From the IMG/VR virus record IMGVR_UViG_3300025141_000794, positions 1 through 23,182 of that record: 23,182 bases of DNA; one strand, 5' to 3'. The stretch comes from a virus. The notes beneath the pieces were generated by a model, which had not been told where the DNA came from, did not search any database, and saw only the letters and a program-made list of their open reading frames with translations. Positions 9,172 to 21,262 of the stretch are shown here, piece after piece; the first letter of the stretch is position 1, and each line of letters opens with the position of its first letter. The position numbers were made by a program, and so were the translations under genes.

Positions 9172-10143
9172 CTAATCGAACTCAGGAAACTGGTCTTGGC
9201 TATCAAGCTCTATTAATCCTTTCGCTTTTGAGTCTATATCTTTATATGTCTCTTTCTTATAATTTTTCTTATATTTAGGTTTCCATACTGGTATCTTGGC
9301 ATCACATGGTCCACCATTGCTTTTATGGAACGAGCACCATTTACATAAATTCTGTGGCACTTGCTCATATCGGTCTTCCATTTCTTCCCTTTCCTTAATA
9401 CAGTCGTGTACGAACTTAATTAAGTCTTTAGCTTCATCGAGCTGATTCTGTGTTATCTTTACAAAGAAAGTATCATCAAAGCGTAGATAGTTAACGCCTA
9501 CAAAATTAGGCATCTCACCCATCTCTAATGTATACAAAAATGCATAGATAATCAACTGGCGATAATATTCCTCTGGTAAATAGGGCCCATAGCGCTTACT
9601 AGTTTTATAATCTAATAAAGTAGTACCACCATCAAAATCATTACATACAACATCAATAACTCCAACTATCGCATACTCATGAGATTTAACCCAACGTTCT
9701 GCATACTTAGGAGCAACTGCGTTCCAAGCTTGTTGTTTACTTTTATATATCTTCCAGTGAACCATTTCATTAAGTTTTTTATTAACACTCTGAACAAAGT
9801 TCTGTAAGAGCTGTTCTGTCTCAATATACATAGCATCCATTTCTTCTTTGGTATGGACTTCCCATAACCATTTATGTTTTGCTATCTTCTCTTCCCAACC
9901 CTTTTCAAACTGGTCTTGAACCCATATAGCAGGTCCACCTTTTTCCCATTGAGGTAACGTTCTGAACTTATTCTTAAATAAATTTTCTAATACTTTGTGT
10001 ACTAGAGTTCCACGGAATAAGTGTATTGTTTTCTTTTCTGGGAGCTTACTTATATATTTATAGTAAAATTCTCTAGGACATTTCATATATGTATTGATTT
10101 TACTTGGGCTCAGCCTCATGTGACTTGGTGTCCATTTTGTCAT
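9172..10143 (-). CDS. Cas4/RecB-family PD-(D/E)XK nuclease with Fe-S cysteines
   Basis: 323-residue nuclease. The active site is complete: His49 (LVHKVLE), Asp164 (GVIDVV), Asp178 and Lys180 (LLDYKTSK) and Gln196 (YYRQLIIY). Four cysteines in the Cas4/AddB arrangement, Cys22 (KCPREF) and Cys267, Cys270 and Cys280 (CKWCSF...PCD), should hold a 4Fe-4S cluster. Proteins of this type are 5'-3' or 3'-5' DNA exonucleases acting in recombination, end processing and, in Cas4, spacer acquisition; no cas genes are near, so a viral recombination or genome-processing role is more likely. It ends the sugar operon and overlaps the preceding stop as ATGA. Function class is confident, biological role is not. 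Confidence 0.88.
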   Translation of the reverse strand: MTKWTPSHMRLSPSKINTYMKCPREFYYKYISKLPEKKTIHLFRGTLVHKVLENLFKNKFRTLPQWEKGGPAIWVQDQFEKGWEEKIAKHKWLWEVHTKEEMDAMYIETEQLLQNFVQSVNKKLNEMVHWKIYKSKQQAWNAVAPKYAERWVKSHEYAIVGVIDVVCNDFDGGTTLLDYKTSKRYGPYLPEEYYRQLIIYAFLYTLEMGEMPNFVGVNYLRFDDTFFVKITQNQLDEAKDLIKFVHDCIKEREEMEDRYEQVPQNLCKWCSFHKSNGGPCDAKIPVWKPKYKKNYKKETYKDIDSKAKGLIELDSQDQFPEFD

Positions 10144-12101
10144 GCTAATATATCTCCAATTTCGTTTAGTAACTTAAGTGCGCTGTTATAAGCGAATCTA
10201 CCTTGTTCATCACTTACCTTCAGCCTAAATGGTATCATTCTAATTAAATGTAGTGCAGTATAGAAATATATCTTAGCTCTTAATATCTCTTCGTCTTCAT
10301 CTAATATCTTACTCCATAGATTGATATACCCCTCAATCTGAGGAGAGTCTAATGAGAAATCAAATGTCTTTAATTCTTCATCTGATAACTTAGACCATGT
10401 TTCATAATATGTTATAAGGGATTGAAACATCTTTCCCATATCTAATTCCATTGCATCCATATACTCTGCTCCATCCATATCTATAAGTTTAACATCATCA
10501 TTCTTTTCATCCACTAGGATGTTTTCAAATGTTAAGTCTCCATGTATAGGACATAAGTTTTTTGGTGCAAGAACCCAACCAAATGAATTTAAACATTCAT
10601 CTAATAATAAGCGTAGTCTTCCTGAATGGTCTAAGAGTTCAGCCTTCTTAAAGACTTTATGTTCTAAATGTTGGCGTAGCCAATCGCGACCATCTTTTAA
10701 AGTTGCTTTGTGGTTGTATACATTCTTGGTTAATAATTTAAGTAACTTCTCTATTGCCCTGTGTTGTACAGTGTAGGCGCAATCAGATAGAAGTTTATAA
10801 TCTTCTAGGTATTCCATCTCATAATAATATTCAAAGGAATTGTCTTCTTCATTAATAATTGTAGGTACTAATGAATTATAAAAGGTTTTAAACCTTTGTA
10901 GTTCACCAGCTTGTTTCTTTAATTTGATATAACCTAATTCTAGATTCTCAGACTTAGAAGCAGTCTTTCTAACAAACTTCTGGTCATCATGTTCTACTAA
11001 TAGAGTATCAGCAAAAGAACCACCCTTCATACGTTCAATGATATTTACATAGGGTATAGAAACCTCAAGGTCTAATATACCATCATTTCTCTTAACTTCA
11101 AAAGCACGAGCTGATGGTCTTAGAAATTCAGAAGGTTTACGGTCATTAATAACAACACGTGGTCCTGAAGACAAGTCCATGATTAATTCATCATAAACTA
11201 TATTGTTCCTTAATAGCTGCGATTCTAAGTATTCACGATTTAAACTATTACGTGCTGTACTTAACACTATATAATAGCCCTCTTCTTTCCATTCTCTTAA
11301 TTTCTGAGTAGCACCATCTAATACTTTAATACCCATAGTAGATGGAGAATCTTCATGGACTATAACTGTTCCATCTAAGTCACAGAATATAGTTCCTTTA
11401 CTTTCTTCAGCTAATGTTCTTTTTAATCTTTCAGGGTCACCAAAGAATTTAGCCCAATCTATTTTTACAGCCTGAACATTAAGTCCATCTTCAATATGAG
11501 CAGAGACAATATCAGAAACATTATCACCCTCTTGTAGATTAAAGCTTTCTATATCTTTAATAAAAACACAACCAATAACTCCAAAGAATTCTCCAGCAGT
11601 ATCTGGTAGTTTCTTTTCAGCTATACCTGTAACCTTTCCAGTATTAGTAACAGAAGCTATACTCCAAGACTTTATATCTTCTCCACGTAATGGCCATACT
11701 GGTAAGATAGCATCATGACCATCTAATAGATTTTTAAATATATTATCCACATGTAAAGCATGGTCACAATCACAAATAATAGCAGAACCTTTTATATTCT
11801 TTTCTTGAATAGCCATACGAATAGTATCAGCTGGACCACTCGTTGCTTTCTCTAACATACAAATATCAAATTTAATATCAGGAAATGATTTACGAAGGTT
11901 TTCACTAACATTATACTCTTCTTCTTGTTCAGAAAGATATACAAATAATACATTCTTAATATATGGTAACCACTTCTTGAATGGTTCAAAAGCTAACTCT
12001 ATGAATGTACCATGACTATTAACCTCTAAGAAAGGTTTGAAGGTTTCACCAAAGCGTACACCTTTACCAGCCATAGGGAATATTAATGTAGTGTTATTCA
12101 T
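10140..12101 (-). CDS. Sugar nucleotidyltransferase-HAD phosphatase-kinase fusion
   Basis: 653-residue, three-domain enzyme. Residues 1-230 are a GT-A nucleotidyltransferase with the nucleotide-binding AGKGVRFG (11-18) and metal site DCD (111-113). Residues 235-345 are a HAD phosphatase with DLDGT (241-245), STARN and INDRKP. Residues 350-650 are an aminoglycoside-phosphotransferase/choline-kinase-like domain with HGDLTFENIL (520-529) and LIDMDG (539-544). Together these could phosphorylate, dephosphorylate and NMP-activate a sugar or polyol. It starts within the transaldolase gene, with an 8-nt overlap and GGAGG. Similar domain trios occur in surface-polysaccharide clusters; the exact substrate is unknown. 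All catalytic motifs appear intact. Confidence 0.82.
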   Translation of the reverse strand: MNNTTLIFPMAGKGVRFGETFKPFLEVNSHGTFIELAFEPFKKWLPYIKNVLFVYLSEQEEEYNVSENLRKSFPDIKFDICMLEKATSGPADTIRMAIQEKNIKGSAIICDCDHALHVDNIFKNLLDGHDAILPVWPLRGEDIKSWSIASVTNTGKVTGIAEKKLPDTAGEFFGVIGCVFIKDIESFNLQEGDNVSDIVSAHIEDGLNVQAVKIDWAKFFGDPERLKRTLAEESKGTIFCDLDGTVIVHEDSPSTMGIKVLDGATQKLREWKEEGYYIVLSTARNSLNREYLESQLLRNNIVYDELIMDLSSGPRVVINDRKPSEFLRPSARAFEVKRNDGILDLEVSIPYVNIIERMKGGSFADTLLVEHDDQKFVRKTASKSENLELGYIKLKKQAGELQRFKTFYNSLVPTIINEEDNSFEYYYEMEYLEDYKLLSDCAYTVQHRAIEKLLKLLTKNVYNHKATLKDGRDWLRQHLEHKVFKKAELLDHSGRLRLLLDECLNSFGWVLAPKNLCPIHGDLTFENILVDEKNDDVKLIDMDGAEYMDAMELDMGKMFQSLITYYETWSKLSDEELKTFDFSLDSPQIEGYINLWSKILDEDEEILRAKIYFYTALHLIRMIPFRLKVSDEQGRFAYNSALKLLNEIGDILA

Positions 12102-12768
12102 TTAATGCCTCCGCATCTTTAAGAAACATCTGAACAGTCTCTTTAGTATACGGATGTACATACATACCTTCTAGTATGTGTGGAGGCACTGTAACTATAT
12201 GTGCTCCATTGTGTAACCATTCCATAACATTAATCTGCTCTCTTACTGAGCCTACAATTATCTTAGCTGATAAATCATGTTCTACAAGTAATATCCTGAG
12301 TTTAGATATTTCTTTTTTAGAATCATAACCCATATTATTTATTCTTCCTCCAAATAAGGAAACATAACTAGCTCCAGCCATTGCGGCTAAATAACATTGC
12401 TGTACACTCATCATTGCTGTAACATTCACTTCTATACCTTGTTGACTCAAATCATTAATCAACTTGAGATTAGGTTCACCATTAGGACCATGTATAGTTA
12501 TTTTAATATTTATATTCTCAGCCCAAGTAGAGAACTCGACCCCTTGTTCAAAAGCTTCTTGTGGGTCGTTTGTAGTTACTTCTACTGATACTGGATAAGG
12601 ATATACTAATTCACATATCTCTACTATAGTCTTCTTTATATCTGTATTACCATCCTTTTTCATAATCGTAGGGTTAGTTGTTACGCCACGGATGATTCCC
12701 ATTTCGTGGAATCTTTTTATTTCCGTGACGTCAGATGAATCTAGGAAAATTCCTTCCATATCCATCAT
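12094..12768 (-). CDS. Transaldolase / fructose-6-phosphate aldolase-like enzyme
   Basis: 224-residue TIM-barrel aldolase of the small transaldolase (TalC/FSA) class, about the usual length. It has the family signature GVTTNPTI (28-35), the Schiff-base lysine probably Lys89 (NINIKITI), the VNVTAMMSVQQ strand-helix (114-124) and SLFGGRINN (137-145, normally PFVGRIDD). Such enzymes move a three-carbon dihydroxyacetone unit between sugars or cleave it off. Small transaldolases are known auxiliary genes of cyanophages, but here the flanking genes point to sugar synthesis rather than to the pentose cycle. Its ATG overlaps the previous stop (ATGA). The changed residues near the active site may mean a different substrate. 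Confidence 0.85.
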   Translation of the reverse strand: MMDMEGIFLDSSDVTEIKRFHEMGIIRGVTTNPTIMKKDGNTDIKKTIVEICELVYPYPVSVEVTTNDPQEAFEQGVEFSTWAENINIKITIHGPNGEPNLKLINDLSQQGIEVNVTAMMSVQQCYLAAMAGASYVSLFGGRINNMGYDSKKEISKLRILLVEHDLSAKIIVGSVREQINVMEWLHNGAHIVTVPPHILEGMYVHPYTKETVQMFLKDAEALNE

Positions 12769-14885
12769 GCCTTATATCCCTTTGGTGTAAATAGATAATC
12801 ATCTTCATCTATGTGTTCATATGTATAGCCCATGTCTATTAACTCTTTGAATCTAGTATCCATTTTTTCTGGAGACATTGTATCGAATTCATCAAAATCA
12901 TCAAAGGCTTCTATGACAATTAGTGGCTTACATCTTTTAATGGTTTTTAATGCTCCTAGTATTACATACTTCTCATAACCTTCCACATCTACTTTGATAT
13001 AATCTACTTTCTTTAGTTTGAGAGAATCTAAAGTTATCAGGTCTATTTTACTTTCCTCGTTCTCTTCATAGAAGTTAACAGTTGCATTAGGTTTACCTAA
13101 CTCCTCACCTATTATACCTGTACCACCGGGATTATTTGTACTAGTGAATCCTAAGTAACCTTCTTCATTAACATTAGATAATGCTTTTTCATATGTCTTA
13201 ACATTCTTACATTTATTTAATTTCATGTTCTCCTTTAATAATTCATAAGAAGGTGTGAAGGGTTCGAATGCGTGTACTTCTTTAGCTACCTTAGAAAGTC
13301 TAACCGTAGCTGTACCTATATGTGAACCTACTTCTACTACTACAGAATCCTTTGTTACATATTCATCTATTAAATGATGTTGGTGTTCTTCCCAAAGATA
13401 ACCTCTTCTAATACATGCACTAATAGGACAATGTTTAAATAAACTGAACTGAGCTGAATAACCTTTGTAGTAGTTCTTAAACTGAAAGACATCATCAGAC
13501 ACAGCGAAAGGGGCTCCATCATCATCAGACCATGATTCACCAAACTGAGATGCTTGATTCTCATAAGGATATTCTACCCAGCCATATGTAGGCCAAGCTA
13601 AATCTATACCTTCTCTTGGGAAACAATGAAACACTTTATCAAGCATATCATCACTAACATCCATAACTTCTTGCATAAATGGTGCATCATCATAAAGATA
13701 TCTTTCTGGCATCAATAAGTATTTCTTTATCTTAGAATTAAAGCGTGCACAGTAATGTGCTCCAATATAACTTTCAGTTCTAATGAAACAATCATATAAA
13801 TGAGATAATTCAACTTTCTCCATGTTTAACTTATCGTGTAAGCCTATTGGTTCTAATGGTGTACTAAACAAATCAATTAAGTCTTGTCGATGACCCCAGA
13901 ACACATGGTCACGAGGATGGAAAGGGAACTCTCTAAAGTATCCTGCGGTAAATATTTTACCTTTAGCACCCTTAGGTATATCCTTATCAAAGTTGATATT
14001 AAAGTACTCATTCATCTTCCACATACTATCTAAGGTGTAACGCTGGTCGTTTCTCATCTTGACAACATATTGAGAGGTTGAGCGCTTAACTCCTGCTAGA
14101 GAAGAAACAATCTGTAGATTTCTATTTCCTGTTCCTCTATTATCTGGTTCAGGTGATTGAACAACTCTTATATTAGAATGTTCTATTTTAGGAACCTCAT
14201 CATTCTCCCAGCAAGATATAATAATATCATTAACAAAAGGAAGTGTAGCATATTCTTGAGCTGTCTCTAATGCATAAGGACTAAATGGTCCTTGTAGAAC
14301 AATATCTAATTTGTTTTGAATTAATACATTAGATAAATTATATTCTGCCATTCCTCTATATTCATCACATACAGTAGGGTCTTCCATTAGTTCTAAAAAG
14401 ATTGTTCTAGATTCATCGAATCTACCTACCCACCATAAACCTACACCTTGTTCAAATTTTAATTGATATAATCCTTTATAACCTACATCAGTATATAATG
14501 GTTCTATATCTTTTTGTGATACTATATCATTTCCTAACTCTAATCCTAATTTAGCAAATAGTATACACTTCTTCATGTTGCTTGTCTTCTCATAGAAGTT
14601 AGCTAAAGAGTGATAACCTTCTACTCTTTTAGGTAATAGTTCTATAGCCATAAGTAGAGTATTCTCTGTGTGTACATTTCTTTCTCCCTGTTTATCATAA
14701 CAGGTAGCTATTCTTAATAAACATTCATATGCAAGTTTATCATCATCTGTTTTATCTGCACAACTAAGATAGAAACCTATAGCTGATGCATACTGATTTA
14801 ACTGTTCATATTCATAACCTACATCGAAGTTCTTCTCAGGATGTTGAGTATCCTTAATAAACTTCTCTAATTGTTTTTGTAACAT
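12765..14885 (-). CDS. TPR-WavE glycosyltransferase-FkbM methyltransferase fusion
   Basis: 706-residue, three-part protein. Residues 20-190 are helical TPR-like repeats. Residues 192-475 match the WavE-type glycosyltransferase pattern (LDIVLQGPFSPY, then NIRVVQSPEPDNRG, NRNLQIVSS and YVVKMRNDQRY), a family first tied to lipopolysaccharide core synthesis. Residues 490-706 are an FkbM-type SAM methyltransferase with VEVGSHIG (517-524), AFEPF (539-543) and KVDVEGYE (631-638). It should build and O-methylate a glycan; no signal or membrane segment, so cytoplasmic. The ATG shares a base with the preceding stop (TAATG) after AAGGAG. Domain assignment is good; substrates are unknown. Confidence 0.82.
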   Translation of the reverse strand: MLQKQLEKFIKDTQHPEKNFDVGYEYEQLNQYASAIGFYLSCADKTDDDKLAYECLLRIATCYDKQGERNVHTENTLLMAIELLPKRVEGYHSLANFYEKTSNMKKCILFAKLGLELGNDIVSQKDIEPLYTDVGYKGLYQLKFEQGVGLWWVGRFDESRTIFLELMEDPTVCDEYRGMAEYNLSNVLIQNKLDIVLQGPFSPYALETAQEYATLPFVNDIIISCWENDEVPKIEHSNIRVVQSPEPDNRGTGNRNLQIVSSLAGVKRSTSQYVVKMRNDQRYTLDSMWKMNEYFNINFDKDIPKGAKGKIFTAGYFREFPFHPRDHVFWGHRQDLIDLFSTPLEPIGLHDKLNMEKVELSHLYDCFIRTESYIGAHYCARFNSKIKKYLLMPERYLYDDAPFMQEVMDVSDDMLDKVFHCFPREGIDLAWPTYGWVEYPYENQASQFGESWSDDDGAPFAVSDDVFQFKNYYKGYSAQFSLFKHCPISACIRRGYLWEEHQHHLIDEYVTKDSVVVEVGSHIGTATVRLSKVAKEVHAFEPFTPSYELLKENMKLNKCKNVKTYEKALSNVNEEGYLGFTSTNNPGGTGIIGEELGKPNATVNFYEENEESKIDLITLDSLKLKKVDYIKVDVEGYEKYVILGALKTIKRCKPLIVIEAFDDFDEFDTMSPEKMDTRFKELIDMGYTYEHIDEDDYLFTPKGYKA

Positions 14886-16771: not shown

Positions 16772-16875
16772 CTAAAAATAGTGAGCGGGATTTAATCCTT
16801 TATATACTCAATATTTAGTTTTATATCTCTCGACGATAGGCTATACCCATAAGCTTATATATAATATAGCTATTG
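16772..16875 (+). promoter_or_regulatory. Multi-TATA promoter with GAGCGGG box (micro-operon at 16894)
   Basis: Order: a CTAAAAATAGTGAGCGGGA box (16772-16790), TATA-like CTTTATATACTC (centre 16804), TTTATATC (16823) and AAGCTTATATATA (centre 16857), then ATTG 20 nt after AGC. The last TATA box predicts a start near 16882, 12 nt before the ATG. Confidence 0.6.
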
Positions 16876-16893
16876 TATATTTAGAGGTAAACA

Positions 16894-17001
16894 ATGACAA
16901 CAAAACTAACACCTAAGCAAGCACACGCAATATGGAAGGCTCACCACAGGGTAGCTACCACAACAAGACACTCCCTCTGGAGTAAGAAAGGAGGTGCATA
17001 G
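16894..17001 (+). CDS. 35-residue basic micro-protein
   Basis: Short ORF with GAGGT 6 nt before the ATG and a TATA box (AAGCTTATATATA) about 37 nt upstream. The product is basic with His and Trp (IWKAHHRV...RHSLWSKKGG). It ends in GGAGGTG, which is also the ribosome site of the next ORF, so the two are linked. No family recognised; reality rests on promoter, ribosome site and coupling. Confidence 0.5.
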   Translation: MTTKLTPKQAHAIWKAHHRVATTTRHSLWSKKGGA

Positions 17002-17003
17002 AT

Positions 17004-17072
17004 ATGACCCCATACCGCAGGTTTTTAATAACCTATATGGTTGGTATTGCATACGCAGTGCGTAAGCTGTAA
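17004..17072 (+). CDS. 22-residue hydrophobic micro-peptide
   Basis: ATG two nt after the previous stop, with GGAGGTG about 7 nt upstream. The peptide is basic at both ends with a hydrophobic middle (FLITYMVGIAYAV), so it could insert in the membrane. Two hairpins follow directly. Too short for statistical support; reported because of its ribosome site and position. Confidence 0.35.
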   Translation: MTPYRRFLITYMVGIAYAVRKL

Positions 17073-17083
17073 CCAGCCCATCA

Positions 17084-17137
17084 GAGGGGCGTACCCCTCA
17101 ATGATAACCCCCCTATATGAAATAATGATTTAGGGGG
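17084..17137 (+). terminator. Two tandem hairpins after the 16894-17072 micro-operon
   Basis: GAGGGG-CGTA-CCCCTC (17084-17099) has a 6-bp stem and 4-nt loop; CCCCCTA (17109-17115) pairs with TAGGGGG (17131-17137). No T-run follows at once, but the T-rich GCCATGGC element lies about 50 nt on. Probable 3' end structure. Confidence 0.45.
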
Positions 17138-17185
17138 CGCTTAGCTTAGGCATAGGCCTATACTTAATTATACCCTATACAAAAA

Positions 17186-17217
17186 TCTTTTTCACCATGG
17201 CGATTTTTATTTTTTTA
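17186..17217 (+). repeat. T-tract/CCATGG element, copy 1
   Basis: CTTTTTCACCATGGCG followed by ATTTTTATTTTTTT. Lies between the convergent ends of the plus micro-operon and the minus four-gene operon. The palindrome is ACCATGGC, one base off the others. Confidence 0.65.
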
Positions 17218-17237
17218 TAATCGCTTTATATATACCC

Positions 17238-17342
17238 TTATAGCTCGTCCTCTTCTAATTGCTTAAGGCAGTTAGTTATACACTCAGTGAGTAACTTATC
17301 TAACTTATCAAGGGTGCTACTGGTGGAGGGGGTGGCACTCAT
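17238..17342 (-). CDS. 34-residue helical micro-protein
   Basis: Last ORF of a four-gene minus-strand operon; its ATG overlaps the stop of the preceding gene (ATGA). The product has a Ser/Thr/Pro N-terminus, then one helix with regular leucines and two Cys (LDKLDKLLTECITNCLKQLE) and an acidic end. No family recognised. The coupling to a well-supported upstream gene is the main evidence. Confidence 0.45.
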   Translation of the reverse strand: MSATPSTSSTLDKLDKLLTECITNCLKQLEEDEL

Positions 17343-17512
17343 GCATACCCCCCGCATGCCTCATAGAATACCCCCCTATCAAAACGGGGGTTGTCTTGGG
17401 CGAACATATCAGCGAAGGCCTCGATAAGCTTAGCCTGTGACGCCGTAGGGCTACCGTGTGGAAAGGCCTTTATTATTTCAGCTACGGCCCTGTAGTGTTT
17501 ACGACTTAACAT
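17339..17512 (-). CDS. Conserved small phage-type protein (NPRFDR...ACG)
   Basis: 57-residue protein: a basic N-terminal helix (SRKHYRAVAEIIKAF), a short linker, then a second helix with FADMFAQDNPRFDRGVFYEACG. This pattern, ending in NPRFD...F..AC, is one I know from many small uncharacterised phage proteins across hosts; no function is established. Its ATG shares a base with the previous TAA (TAATG), and the next gene starts at its stop (ATGA). It is shorter than 60 residues but is among the better supported small genes here. Confidence 0.7.
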   Translation of the reverse strand: MLSRKHYRAVAEIIKAFPHGSPTASQAKLIEAFADMFAQDNPRFDRGVFYEACGGYA

Positions 17513-17736
17513 TATTTAACCTCCGGTTTAATGCTTTCAATTTCTGCGTTAATTTCCGAAAGCCTTTTTAAAACGTGTTTAGCGTAGCGGTTCAAATCGT
17601 GGCCTTTCATTCCGGCCGTATCTTGTAAATATTTAATTTTACCAGCTAAGACCCAAAAAGCATTTGCTTCGTGTCTGTATTGGTCTTTACTCAAAGCTTC
17701 GCTATTTTCGGCTCTTGTTAGATGTGTTTTTAACAT
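17512..17736 (-). CDS. Small helical hypothetical protein
   Basis: 74 residues, helical and basic, with no Cys or membrane span (AFWVLAGKIKYLQDTAG; ending in AEIESIKPEVK). The start codon follows the previous stop directly, with GGAG 10 nt upstream inside the previous gene. Second gene of the minus-strand four-gene operon. No family recognised. Confidence 0.6.
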   Translation of the reverse strand: MLKTHLTRAENSEALSKDQYRHEANAFWVLAGKIKYLQDTAGMKGHDLNRYAKHVLKRLSEINAEIESIKPEVK

Positions 17737-18039
17737 TTAAATTACTCCGTAATATTTTGATGCATTATAATTATTATATTGCGTAGGTTCTACTTTTGGA
17801 TAAAGTTTAAACTTTGCTCCAACACTATTAATTAAGTCCCAAACTTCGCCGTCGTCAAGACTGCCGTGTTTGGTTCCGAAGCTGTGCAGGTTTGCCCAGC
17901 CTACGGTATGACAATAAAGGGAATTGGTCCCCTCCATTCTTGAACCCATTAATTCCACATAAAAGTTGTGGATACTCATCAATCGACCGTTCCAGTCGAC
18001 GAAGCCAGTTTTATTAGTTTGATACGTTGTTTTGTTCAT
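17737..18039 (-). CDS. Small hypothetical protein, first gene of four-gene operon
   Basis: 100-residue protein, polar with many aromatic residues (HNFYVELMG; YNNYNASKYYGVI), no membrane span. GAGGT lies 7 nt before the ATG. About 46 nt upstream is the first of three TATA boxes, behind a GAGCGGG box, the same promoter module as in the two genes to its right. No domain recognised. The strong promoter and leading position suggest an early gene. Confidence 0.6.
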   Translation of the reverse strand: MNKTTYQTNKTGFVDWNGRLMSIHNFYVELMGSRMEGTNSLYCHTVGWANLHSFGTKHGSLDDGEVWDLINSVGAKFKLYPKVEPTQYNNYNASKYYGVI

Positions 18040-18080
18040 TTTAATTACCTCTTTTTCTCTATTTTACTTACGGTTTCAAA

Positions 18081-18165
18081 GTATATAAAGCTTTGCCTCC
18101 AAATAGTATATAAGGCTCCTCTTCCCTTATATAGGGCCGTTTAGGTCCCGCTCGCACTTTTTGGA
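18081..18165 (-). promoter_or_regulatory. Triple-TATA promoter with GAGCGGG box (four-gene operon)
   Basis: On the minus strand: TCCAAAAAGTGCGAGCGGGA box (18143-18165 with flank), then TATA boxes centred near 18131, 18109 and 18085, spaced about 22 and 24 nt, then ATG at 18039. The box is about 15 nt from the first TATA box. Confidence 0.65.
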
Positions 18166-18170
18166 AAAAA

Positions 18171-18200
18171 ATCAATTTTGCCATGGCTAAAATTTTTTTT
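18171..18200 (+). repeat. T-tract/GCCATGGC element, copy 2
   Basis: AATTTTGCCATGGCTAAAA followed by a T8 run; upstream of the triple-TATA promoter of the minus four-gene operon. Confidence 0.7.
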
Positions 18201-18231
18201 AGGTTACCCTAAACATTGTTAATATATTTGT

Positions 18232-18280
18232 CGGTTGGGGTGCCCCAGAACCCCTCACGCTAACCACGGGTTTCCAACCG
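18232..18280. other. Hairpin-forming segment in the 18200-18480 non-coding stretch
   Basis: CGGTTGG (18232-18238) pairs with CCAACCG (18274-18280), with further GGGGT/ACCCC pairing inside. The stretch from about 18203 to 18480 has no convincing gene; it may be part of the 3' untranslated region of 18744-18914 or a separate RNA. Confidence 0.35.
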
Positions 18281-18494
18281 CGTCACTCCGGAAGTGCCGA
18301 ATTAACCAAACCCTCGACACGCGTGCCTCTTGATTTGATTATTCTTTTACGCTTCGTCATTCGTTGTCCGACGACCGACATTATTTTTCTTCGGATTATA
18401 CCCGAATATCTAAAACGTCTATAAAGTTTCACACATTGAAAGGTAAGATTCTAGAAGTCTATCTTTCGTGTTCTTTGAATAGATGTTATAAAAA

Positions 18495-18623
18495 TAAGGT
18501 GGTTAGGTGCAATACTATTTTGCTATTTTCATCTTCCTAACCGGTGCAACGGGGGATTCGTGGTTAACCCCCAAAGAGACGCCCAACTACCTAAGTAGTT
18601 ATTTGTCGCTTCTTACCACCTTA
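18495..18623. ncRNA. Candidate multibranch structured RNA
   Basis: A perfect 9-bp closing stem, TAAGGTGGT (18495-18503) with ACCACCTTA (18615-18623), encloses three local hairpins: TAGG (18504-18507)/CCTA (18536-18539), GGGGG (18551-18555)/CCCCC (18568-18572), and AACTAC-CTAA-GTAGTT (18585-18600). This cloverleaf-like layout sits in a 540-base stretch without a convincing gene. Strand of transcription is unknown. Confidence 0.4.
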
Positions 18624-18743
18624 CACCTCCTCATTCACTTGAACGTTGGAGCAGTTCGGCGTGCCTTAATCCGTTGGGTAGGATTTATTCAGCCAGTTGC
18701 GATACAGGGGAGCTACCCCCGTAAACGTAATAATTGCGTATGA

Positions 18744-18914
18744 TTATAATAAGCTACTGTCTCGAAGTAGACGATTAACGCCCCACTTTCGAATTCTTAC
18801 AAGTCGAGCTTGTGTTACCAAGTCCTGTTTGTAGAACGTCTCAAAGTCGAGTGCTCCACCGTTTCCCTTGTAGGAGTGCCAGTTGCTTACTATTTGGTTT
18901 TCGTATTTATCCAT
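18744..18914 (-). CDS. 56-residue basic protein under a triple-TATA promoter
   Basis: Small ORF: ATG after GAGG about 9 nt upstream, TAA at the left end. The product is mixed and then basic (NWHSYKGNGGALDFETFYKQ; LVRIRKWGVNRLLR), without Cys. Its promoter has three TATA boxes spaced about 24 and 20 nt and a distal GAGCGG box, matching those of 17737-18039 and of 19230-19364. No family recognised. About 540 bases of non-coding, hairpin-rich sequence follow downstream. Confidence 0.6.
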   Translation of the reverse strand: MDKYENQIVSNWHSYKGNGGALDFETFYKQDLVTQARLVRIRKWGVNRLLRDSSLL

Positions 18915-18948
18915 TGTTTCTTTTCCTCTGTATTACCTGTAGCAACAA

Positions 18949-19034
18949 AGTATTTAAAGCTTTGCCTCGTTTTAGTATATAAGGGTCGAGGGGGTATATA
19001 TACTCCGTTATAGGTTCCGCTCGCACTTTTTGGA
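18949..19034 (-). promoter_or_regulatory. Triple-TATA promoter with GAGCGG box (gene 18744-18914)
   Basis: On the minus strand: AAAAAGTGCGAGCGGAACC box (19012-19034 with flank), TATA boxes centred near 18998, 18978 and 18954 (spacing about 20 and 24 nt), then ATG at 18914. It shares a 23-bp stretch with the 18143-18165 copy, one base different. Confidence 0.65.
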
Positions 19035-19049
19035 CCAAGCGCGCGACAC

Positions 19050-19088
19050 AAAAATTATTTTTCGCCATGGCGTTTTTTCTTTTTTTTT
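19050..19088 (+). repeat. T-tract/GCCATGGC element, copy 3
   Basis: ATTTTTCGCCATGGCG followed by long T-runs, placed between two divergent triple-TATA promoters. Confidence 0.7.
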
Positions 19089-19099
19089 GGGGCGTGCCT

Positions 19100-19195
19100 C
19101 GCCCGCTTTTCTAAAAACAGTGAGCGGGCGTTATATTGGGGTATATAAGGCTAGAGGAGACTTATATACCTTTTAGAGAGAAAGCTTTATATACT
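19100..19195 (+). promoter_or_regulatory. Triple-TATA promoter with GAGCGGG box and dyad (micro-operon at 19230)
   Basis: CTAAAAACAGTGAGCGGGC box (19111-19129) inside an 8-bp inverted repeat (CGCCCGCT 19100-19107, AGCGGGCG 19123-19130), then TATA boxes centred near 19144, 19164 and 19189 (spacing 20 and 25 nt). It is back to back with the 18949-19034 promoter, with a GCCATGGC element between them. Confidence 0.65.
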
Positions 19196-19229
19196 CCGAA
19201 ACTGTGTGTAATATAGAGGAAAACTAAAA

Positions 19230-19364
19230 ATGAGTGACCACTACTATGACAGATTCGCCGAGTGCGAAGACTGCGGGCTTGAACGTCGATTATACGGCGG
19301 ACTTTGTGAAGAATGTGACGGCGAAATGTTCGCCACATTTTGGACAGGTGATGACGATGAGTAA
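19230..19364 (+). CDS. 44-residue zinc-ribbon protein
   Basis: First gene of a five-gene micro-operon. It holds two CxxC pairs, Cys12/Cys15 (CEDC) and Cys26/Cys29 (CEEC), separated by ten residues with a Gly-Gly turn, the layout of a zinc ribbon, and an acidic tail (TGDDDE). GAGG is about 10 nt upstream; the proximal TATA box is about 41 nt upstream. Viral zinc ribbons of this size often bind host transcription proteins or nucleic acid; that role is inference. The longer frame that overlaps it (from 19234) is rejected below. Confidence 0.65.
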   Translation: MSDHYYDRFAECEDCGLERRLYGGLCEECDGEMFATFWTGDDDE

Positions 19365-20499: not shown

Positions 20500-20567
20500 G
20501 GGCAGCGGGACGTCAAAATGCGTTCCAAAAAACGCTTAAAAAATTTTGTCGACGATAGCCTCTACCC

Positions 20568-20594
20568 AAAGCTTTATATATAGAGTATACACTG
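20568..20594 (+). promoter_or_regulatory. Leaderless archaeal promoter of gene 20602
   Basis: AAAGCTTTATATATAG centred about 25 nt before the ATG, with ACTG 21 nt after AGC. Confidence 0.7.
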
Positions 20595-20601
20595 TAGTAG
20601 T

Positions 20602-20862
20602 ATGAGCAGAAGAGAGAACTTTGTTACTAAGAAAGCACTCCCGTGGCAAAGTAGAGCGGTGCCTTTGGCCGACTACTACGCTGAGATTGGAGACACGGTT
20701 TACGGCAAGTCCGGATATTACCGTGAGAAAGTTTCGTTGGGAAGTTTCCCAATCGGAATGCACGACCAACTGAGATTAGAGTTATTAAATTCTAATACAG
20801 TTTTCGACTCACCCTACTGGGGCGGAGAAGACCTAAAATTGAGGCAGATAATCTCTTCATAA
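20602..20862 (+). CDS. Small hypothetical protein, leaderless
   Basis: 86 residues, Tyr-rich and basic in its first half (SRRENFVTKKALPWQSR), mixed after. The ATG is about 25 nt from the centre of a TATA box (AGCTTTATATATA), so the mRNA is probably leaderless; there is no Shine-Dalgarno. No domain recognised. A T-tract/GCCATGGC element lies about 90 nt upstream of the TATA box. Confidence 0.6.
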   Translation: MSRRENFVTKKALPWQSRAVPLADYYAEIGDTVYGKSGYYREKVSLGSFPIGMHDQLRLELLNSNTVFDSPYWGGEDLKLRQIISS

Positions 20863-20864
20863 GC

Positions 20865-20898
20865 AAAAGCTTATATAGAGAGTCTCTATTGGTATAAT
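20865..20898 (+). promoter_or_regulatory. Archaeal promoter of gene 20915
   Basis: AAAAGCTTATATAG, then GTCTCTATTGGTATAAT at the same 14-nt offset as at 19993. The predicted start near 20899 leaves a 16-nt leader holding AAGGAG. Confidence 0.75.
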
Positions 20899-20914
20899 AC
20901 AAGGAGTATAAAAA

Positions 20915-21262
20915 ATGGTAGCAACAAAAAAAGACCAAAAAAGCACAGCGATGGACTACTTAGCTTCACCACGAAGTGAGGGCTTAGTAGCCGGAATAAT
21001 GACCCTGTTAGGATACACGGCACCAAAAGGTGGCCGACTTCCTGCCGGAGTCAAATACGACACACTCGTAGCACTCAAAGATGTTTTAGGAACTGACGAT
21101 AAGTTCGCATCTATGATGACGAGTAGAATTGCTCAACTTCAAGGAAACCGCAGTCGTGGAACACCTAAAATTGGAGCAAATCCAGAATCGATTATTCAAG
21201 CAGTAAAGCAAGGGAAAATTTCTCTTGAAGAGCTAAAGAAACAAATCGCTTCTTTGGATTAA
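20915..21262 (+). CDS. Hypothetical basic helical protein
   Basis: 115 residues with a Lys-rich N-terminus (VATKKDQKSTAMDYL), a central Gly/Pro-rich part and a helical C-terminus (NPESIIQAVKQGKISLEELKKQIASLD, residues 89-115 in outline). AAGGAG is 9 nt before the ATG and a TATA box about 41 nt upstream, with a proximal element nearly identical to that of 20035-20178. A 7-bp hairpin follows the stop by 11 nt. No family recognised. Confidence 0.65.
   Translation: MVATKKDQKSTAMDYLASPRSEGLVAGIMTLLGYTAPKGGRLPAGVKYDTLVALKDVLGTDDKFASMMTSRIAQLQGNRSRGTPKIGANPESIIQAVKQGKISLEELKKQIASLD

Follow-up and report, generated by a model that had tools for sequence, protein, structure and literature searches.

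The data from the DNA stretch analysed here (the window, i.e. the full 23,182 bases of IMG/VR record IMGVR_UViG_3300025141_000794) and from related viral records suggest that a 106-bp module, present in three copies in the window, constitutes one composite archaeal promoter that is reused to co-run a set of small, probably early genes. In this model, (i) transcription would begin at a single start about 27 bp past the beginning of the TATATA core in the last of three TATA boxes (TATA3), i.e. at about column 93 of the module, (ii) it would proceed on the host TBP, TFB and RNA polymerase, and (iii) the upstream part, made up of a GC-rich box, followed by an AT step and by two TATA boxes (TATA1 and TATA2) in inverted orientation around a 7-bp centre, would be held in fixed helical phase to TATA3 and act as a single unit which, by recruiting or positioning the host machinery, determines how strongly and when the gene set is expressed. 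From the sequence comparisons we put the probability that TATA3 is the one productive promoter, with a rigid element upstream through which an early-type regulon is coordinated, at roughly 0.6.

Read 5' to 3' toward the gene, with column 0 at the first G of GAGCGG, the module comprises AAAAA (columns -9 to -5), N4, the GAGCGG box (0-5), TATA (10-13), TATATA (20-25, TATA1), the 7-bp centre (30-36), a second TATATA (41-46, TATA2), a short dyad TTTGASSCAAA around column 56, the AAA of a TFB recognition element (BRE; 59-61) and TTTATATA (64-71, TATA3). Downstream of TATA3 follow an AT-rich stretch with TA at its end (92-93), GAGG (94-97) and an ATG that usually lies at columns 103-115.

The three full copies have the places and strands given in the preliminary description of this DNA. 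With columns taken from the ungapped alignment of 63 non-redundant modules, copy A (18039-18162, minus strand) has AAAAA at 18162-18158, the GAGCGG box at 18153-18148, TATA1 at 18133-18128, the centre in its GAG form at 18123-18117, TATA2 at 18112-18107, the BRE at 18094-18092, TATA3 at 18089-18082 and a predicted start at about 18060; the ATG at 18039 opens a gene for 100 amino acids (17737-18039, minus strand; family c1) with module-driven orthologues in 10 other records. Copy B (18914-19031, minus strand) has AAAAA at 19031-19027, the box at 19022-19017, TATA1 at 19002-18997, the centre in its CTC form at 18992-18986, TATA2 at 18981-18976, TATA3 (TTTAAATA) at 18958-18951 and a predicted start at about 18929, and leads into a gene for 56 amino acids (18744-18914, minus strand, ATG at 18914; family c2). 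Copy C (19113-19230, plus strand) has AAAAA at 19113-19117, the box at 19122-19127, TATA1 at 19142-19147, the centre in its GAG form at 19152-19158, TATA2 at 19163-19168, TATA3 at 19186-19193 and a predicted start at about 19215; its gene (19230-19364, plus strand, ATG at 19230; family c6) encodes a CxxC protein of 44 amino acids. In all three copies the TATATA cores lie exactly at +20 and +41 from the start of the box and TATA3 (TATATA or TAAATA) at +66, the gene begins at +108 to +114, and zero insertions or deletions distinguish the 106-bp modules from one another. In every copy the box reads AAAAA-N4-GAGCGG without gaps rather than having the form AAAAAxAGTGxGAGCGG proposed earlier, and the steps between the TATA boxes, described before as even, are uneven but invariant at 21 and 25 bp.

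The module is specific to one group of viruses. From the 523 related loci that a terminase search returned in IMG/VR, 80 were retained. When the whole of IMG/VR was scanned with patterns of the box plus TATA boxes, the matches fell in this virus group and in a few chance sequences; a scan with a looser box returned only records found before, and whole-record searches detected between 1 and 6 copies in each of 20 records but no match to a control pattern. A matrix scan of the early regions identified 77 modules in 19 records, most of which carry 3-7 copies, and 63 of these modules are non-redundant (under 90% identity). Conservation of the box and of the TATA spacing in related viruses was what the preliminary description had asked a motif search to show, and both are conserved. 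A scan for the TATA array that ignored the box added 9 modules, 8 of which have CGG at columns 3-5 (GTTCGG in several); box and array therefore go together even where the box is not required. Pattern matches in L091, L094, L099, L104, L105, L108 and L167 are due to chance or low complexity. A genome-wide element shared with cells was rejected, the three-TATA pattern having no match in GTDB genome contigs, as was recent duplication as the only source, the copies being 46-90% identical and lying ahead of unrelated genes. Two further records have AAAAA-N4-GAGCGG ahead of a different TATA arrangement with TCGA...TCGA palindromes (L087 near 7378 and L090 near 2167).

The rigidity of the module exceeds its sequence conservation. 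The 63 non-redundant modules share a mean identity of 66%, and of 45% at the 49 variable columns, and they align without a gap over 106 columns from -9 to +97. As the matrix scan was itself ungapped, the search was repeated with free spacing (12-29 between TATA1 and TATA2, 15-33 between TATA2 and TATA3): 52 of 53 true arrays have the 21/25 spacing and one (L127) has 22/25 through a 1-nt insertion. Entries at 19/25, 19/27 and 21/27 are second registers of TATATATA, and two more, from L132 and L143, are unrelated. In twenty Markov shuffles of 795 kb the mean was 0.30 arrays each, with 0 at 21/25 as opposed to the 52 observed, and reversed sequences never scored above -77 with the module matrix, whereas every copy scores at least +44; a chance repeat is rejected on both grounds. 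Beyond the module the flanks differ. The stretch free of insertions and deletions stops at the start predicted for TATA3 and the ribosome site, and the position of the ATG varies freely beyond it. That conservation spans the distance from the box to this start suggests one nucleoprotein assembly. Moreover, when 125 TATA3-like promoters that precede open reading frames (ORFs) were scored for their upstream sequence, about 50 scored -60 or less, 74 scored +30 or more, and none was intermediate; a TATA promoter in these viruses either carries the complete upstream array or lacks it entirely. Module promoters lie in the tiny-gene region, and the other parts of the large records that were examined have single promoters only.

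Each of the 77 modules is followed by a small ORF (22-124 amino acids; 19 families), in line with the earlier proposal that the shared module is always directed at a small gene, and the sets of families differ among related viruses. Ten representative proteins had no match in Pfam or PHROG. Identical ends ahead of so many families might alternatively mark boundaries at which small accessory genes are swapped, so that the conservation would reflect exchange and not binding geometry; for 29 of 69 modules the nearest relative indeed precedes an unrelated gene in another genome. Still, modules 66% alike are too divergent for efficient homologous exchange, their conservation is patterned (TATA, BRE and Shine-Dalgarno (SD) sequence) and stops at the ribosome site, and modules ahead of the same gene are the most alike (0.70 versus 0.65), and we consider exchange a very improbable explanation.

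The three TATA boxes are not equivalent. TATA3 has the makings of a canonical archaeal core promoter, with an A-rich BRE (CAAAGC) directly upstream, an SD sequence and ATG downstream and a predicted start about 27 bp on. An A-rich BRE, a melting region and a correctly placed ribosome site are found at TATA3 only: TATA1 and TATA2 have no AAA upstream, the flanks of TATA1 are in reverse orientation, and columns 92-93 are the only initiator-like ones. The flanks of TATA1 resemble the reverse complement of those of TATA2 and not the TATA2 flanks themselves (similarity 0.45 versus 0.19), while those of TATA2 resemble the flanks of TATA3 in the same direction. The strongest dyad of the module lies at column 33, the midpoint between TATA1 and TATA2 (0.63 versus a mean of 0.27, standard deviation 0.07), and a second one lies 23 bp away at column 56, the midpoint between TATA2 and TATA3; the two differ in sequence (CSWSG and TTTGASSCAAA, respectively). 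The 7-bp centre reads CCCTCGA or its reverse complement TCGAGGG, with 490 reverse-complement pairs versus 145 +/- 22 for shuffled columns, and both orientations occur ahead of orthologues of the same gene. The upstream element thus appears usable either way round, unlike what is expected of a directional start site.

These data bear on the idea, put forward in the preliminary description, of a stepwise or switchable promoter in which each TATA box would initiate a separate transcript at a start covered by the following box. In its favour, steps of 21 and 25 bp approach the spacing between a TATA box and its melting region (22 bp from TATA3 to AATATA), and the likeness of the TATA2 and TATA3 flanks points the same way. 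The idea is nevertheless at odds with the opposite layout of TATA1, with the free flipping of the centre beside TATA2 before orthologous genes and with the restriction of the BRE AAA to TATA3 and of the initiator-like column to 92-93; moreover, of the several TATA boxes in a promoter of halovirus HF2, only the one correctly spaced from the mapped start was considered usable (PMC8707807). Multiple starts are therefore improbable and, weakly supported as they are, the least favoured of three explanations for the upstream TATA boxes, the others being landing sites and an operator. By inspection, a divergent start from the reversed TATA1 is also unlikely, given that the GC-rich box would be its melting region.

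Within the model of one productive TATA3, TATA1 and TATA2 may possibly serve as BRE-less, inverted and non-productive landing sites for TBP that feed TATA3 in one fixed nucleoprotein complex. If so, the module would represent a prokaryotic multi-TBP element akin to an enhancer, indifferent to the orientation of its centre. Somewhat more doubtfully, TATA1, the centre and TATA2, perhaps with the TTTGASSCAAA dyad by the BRE, would be cooperative sites of a dimeric viral or host regulator, e.g. of the Lrp type, that shuts or switches the promoter. Such an operator array would account for the dyads midway between successive TATA boxes, for the 21 bp between the centres of TATA1 and TATA2, which equal two helical turns, and for the lack of an A-rich BRE at both. 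It also has parallels: archaeal Lrp regulators bind clusters of semi-palindromes 2-3 turns apart with a constrained site by the BRE (PMC2995911), and in SIRV2 the co-expressed Aca8 is believed to repress the early promoters (PMC11065993). On the other side, an invariant TATATA is a hallmark of TBP sites, the two dyads differ in sequence, the 25 bp between TATA2 and TATA3 are a non-integral number of turns, and the box would be left unexplained. The sequence by itself is compatible with TBP at the upstream TATA boxes and with a dimeric regulator alike.

Several points weigh against a single productive TATA3 with an activating upstream element. The TATATA core never varies at TATA1 and hardly does at TATA2, as would be expected if TBP were bound there, and TATA2 may also fire, if weakly. 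The array could be the operator of a repressor instead of an activating element. Finally, the box has variants, including GTTCGG and ACGCGA, which a strict activator site should not easily permit.

The box also opens two other types of promoter, class 2 with CGACGATAG in the middle and class 3 ahead of a conserved gene for about 55-95 amino acids; in both, the final TATA lies 71-75 bp from the box. As the box is common to all promoter classes here, it would most likely be the contact of a sequence-specific activator. What had been described as a fourth, looser copy at 16772-16866 belongs to class 2: it shares the box with the module and has a TATA at +18 and a final BRE-TATA, but its middle contains CGACGATAG. 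This promoter (16774-16896, plus strand) comprises AAAAA at 16774-16778, GAGCGG at 16783-16788, CGACGATAG at 16831-16839 and the final TATA at 16855-16863, ahead of a gene for 35 amino acids with its ATG at 16894 (plus strand). A second class-2 promoter (20503-20604, plus strand) has the box CAGCGGGA (CAGCGG) at 20503, CGACGATAG at 20550-20558 and TTTATATATA at 20573, ahead of a gene for 86 amino acids with its ATG at 20602 (plus strand). A strict exact pattern for the class-2 core, which proved too strict, had no match. Orthologues of the gene at 19230 lie behind class 1, the 106-bp module, in the window, L110 and L119, and behind class 2 with the same box in a sister clade (L061-L063, L067, L147, L148 and others), indicating that the frame from the box to BRE-TATA3 is kept while the middle is exchanged. 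In the terminase tree, records with class 1 form one group and those with class 2 only form another, although in these contig fragments absence of a class is unproven. In a single example, the class-2 motif TCTCGACGATAG is inverted in place (L148 versus L063). A further type of promoter has a TATA followed by CTATTGGTATA, with the ATG almost at the expected start (window 20871-20917; L110 near 9380; L061, L063 and L147); these promoters, often without a ribosome site, are possibly leaderless.

SIRV2 and HF2 already offer examples of promoter cassettes that recur within a viral genome, and the kind of element is therefore known. In SIRV2, a shared early regulatory sequence around a near-identical BRE and TATA precedes many small, single and unrelated genes that are transcribed first and include anti-CRISPRs (PMC11065993). 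The module similarly places one shared sequence around BRE and TATA ahead of several small, unrelated, monocistronic genes per genome, as in SIRV2 and other archaeal viruses; the SIRV2-type element, however, is described as one core promoter flanked by conserved or inverted-repeat sequence (PMC11065993), whereas the tailed marine viruses here have a rigid 106-bp element that combines a GC-rich box with three TATA boxes. By analogy, the module-driven genes would be early, and they are candidates for functions in host take-over and anti-defence. The class I repeats of HF2 are likewise repeated intergenic promoters in an archaeal tailed virus, located in its early-middle arm and conserved in position among relatives (PMC8707807). 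At 56-58 bp they are half as long, have the different blocks alpha, beta and gamma and contain one TATA box in a beta motif with CTTTAAGT (PMC8707807); the module has CTTTATATAC and its three TATA boxes instead of this 58-bp unit. Several TATA boxes at regular steps also precede mapped starts in HF2 (T-17064 / T-17022), but there, at a single locus, direct repeats of 12 bp recur every 14-15 bp, only the properly spaced TATA is thought to function, and the spacing varies among relatives through deletions of 2 bp and more, unlike the fixed spacing of the module (PMC8707807).

Two other archaeal systems share single traits with the module. UV-inducible Sulfolobus promoters contain, ahead of BRE and TATA, a conserved hexanucleotide that is essential for activity and thought to bind an activator; it lies at -39 to -44 from the start (PMC5817253), whereas the box of the module precedes the predicted start by about 93 bp and is separated from it by two TATA boxes. 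The sites of Lrp-type activators (Ptr2, Ss-LrpB) are clusters of semi-palindromes at helical spacing with a position-constrained site by the BRE, and the part of PMC2995911 at hand describes no TATA boxes within them, unlike the array of the module. In the literature searched, we found no description of the rigid three-TATA design, of an inverted pair with an orientation-free centre or of a box shared by three classes. The cassette may be read as an early-gene code for uncultured marine viruses with archaeal-type promoters, which marks at least 19 families of small proteins and points to the genes that these viruses probably need first. It also provides a ready system to address if archaeal TBP is able to exert an effect from non-productive TATA boxes located upstream. 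From the geometry, transcription is predicted to start only at column ~93, to be sensitive to insertions of half a turn and to be unaffected when the centre is flipped.

The viruses that carry the module form one group; they are uncultured, marine and tailed and have archaeal-type promoters. The window encodes an HK97-type capsid protein, a portal and a large terminase (TerL) and uses archaeal-type TATA promoters; sigma-70 promoters were rejected, being no more frequent than by chance. Phage records had no relative of the major capsid protein and only distant matches to TerL, the exonuclease and PolB. The magroviruses described for Poseidoniales are marine and tailed and encode PolB (PMC10768690, PMC10160649); the aoguangvirid has TFB and chaperonin genes. 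Compared with this Magrovirales type, with its HK97 head genes, the window has the major capsid protein, portal and TerL, and PolB is present in 5 of 6 relatives searched; unlike in the aoguangvirid, no TFB gene was found in ten records searched, nor one for TBP, and no chaperonin gene in the searched records of the group. A search for hosts with the TerL alignment gave 46 stretches that fit the pattern in the GTDB genomes scanned, with 0 confirmed. Poseidoniales are considered a likely host. Between the exonuclease and the early region, the window (12094-12768, 12765-14885 and 10140-12101, minus strand) encodes transaldolase-like and sugar/methyltransferase-type proteins, which are probably surface glycan genes.

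Other elements lie near the early promoters. The palindrome GCCATGGC occurs 6 times in the window (0.11 expected; 18180, 19064, 19956, 20478, 21687 and 21710), including one between T-runs at 18180-18187, 27 bp upstream of the box of copy A, and one at 19064-19071 between the divergent copies B and C. Such virus-specific, short (near-)palindromic tags, often between T-runs, lie a few dozen bases upstream of early promoters in other records also (GACAGTC in L117/L118; CAGGGGCTG in L120-L122, 13 times in L121 with 0.07 expected), and they could be virus-specific operators or terminators. Behind the gene of copy B, a stretch at 18541-18723 (minus strand) matches the Rfam manA RNA (RF01745) with 47.4 bits, just under the gathering score, and this RNA is above gathering in the early regions of L116 (72.6 bits), L118, L113 and L112. 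Finally, tRNA genes lie directly upstream of module copies in L116 (12853-12925), L117 (11129-11201) and L118 (10240-10312), all on the minus strand.

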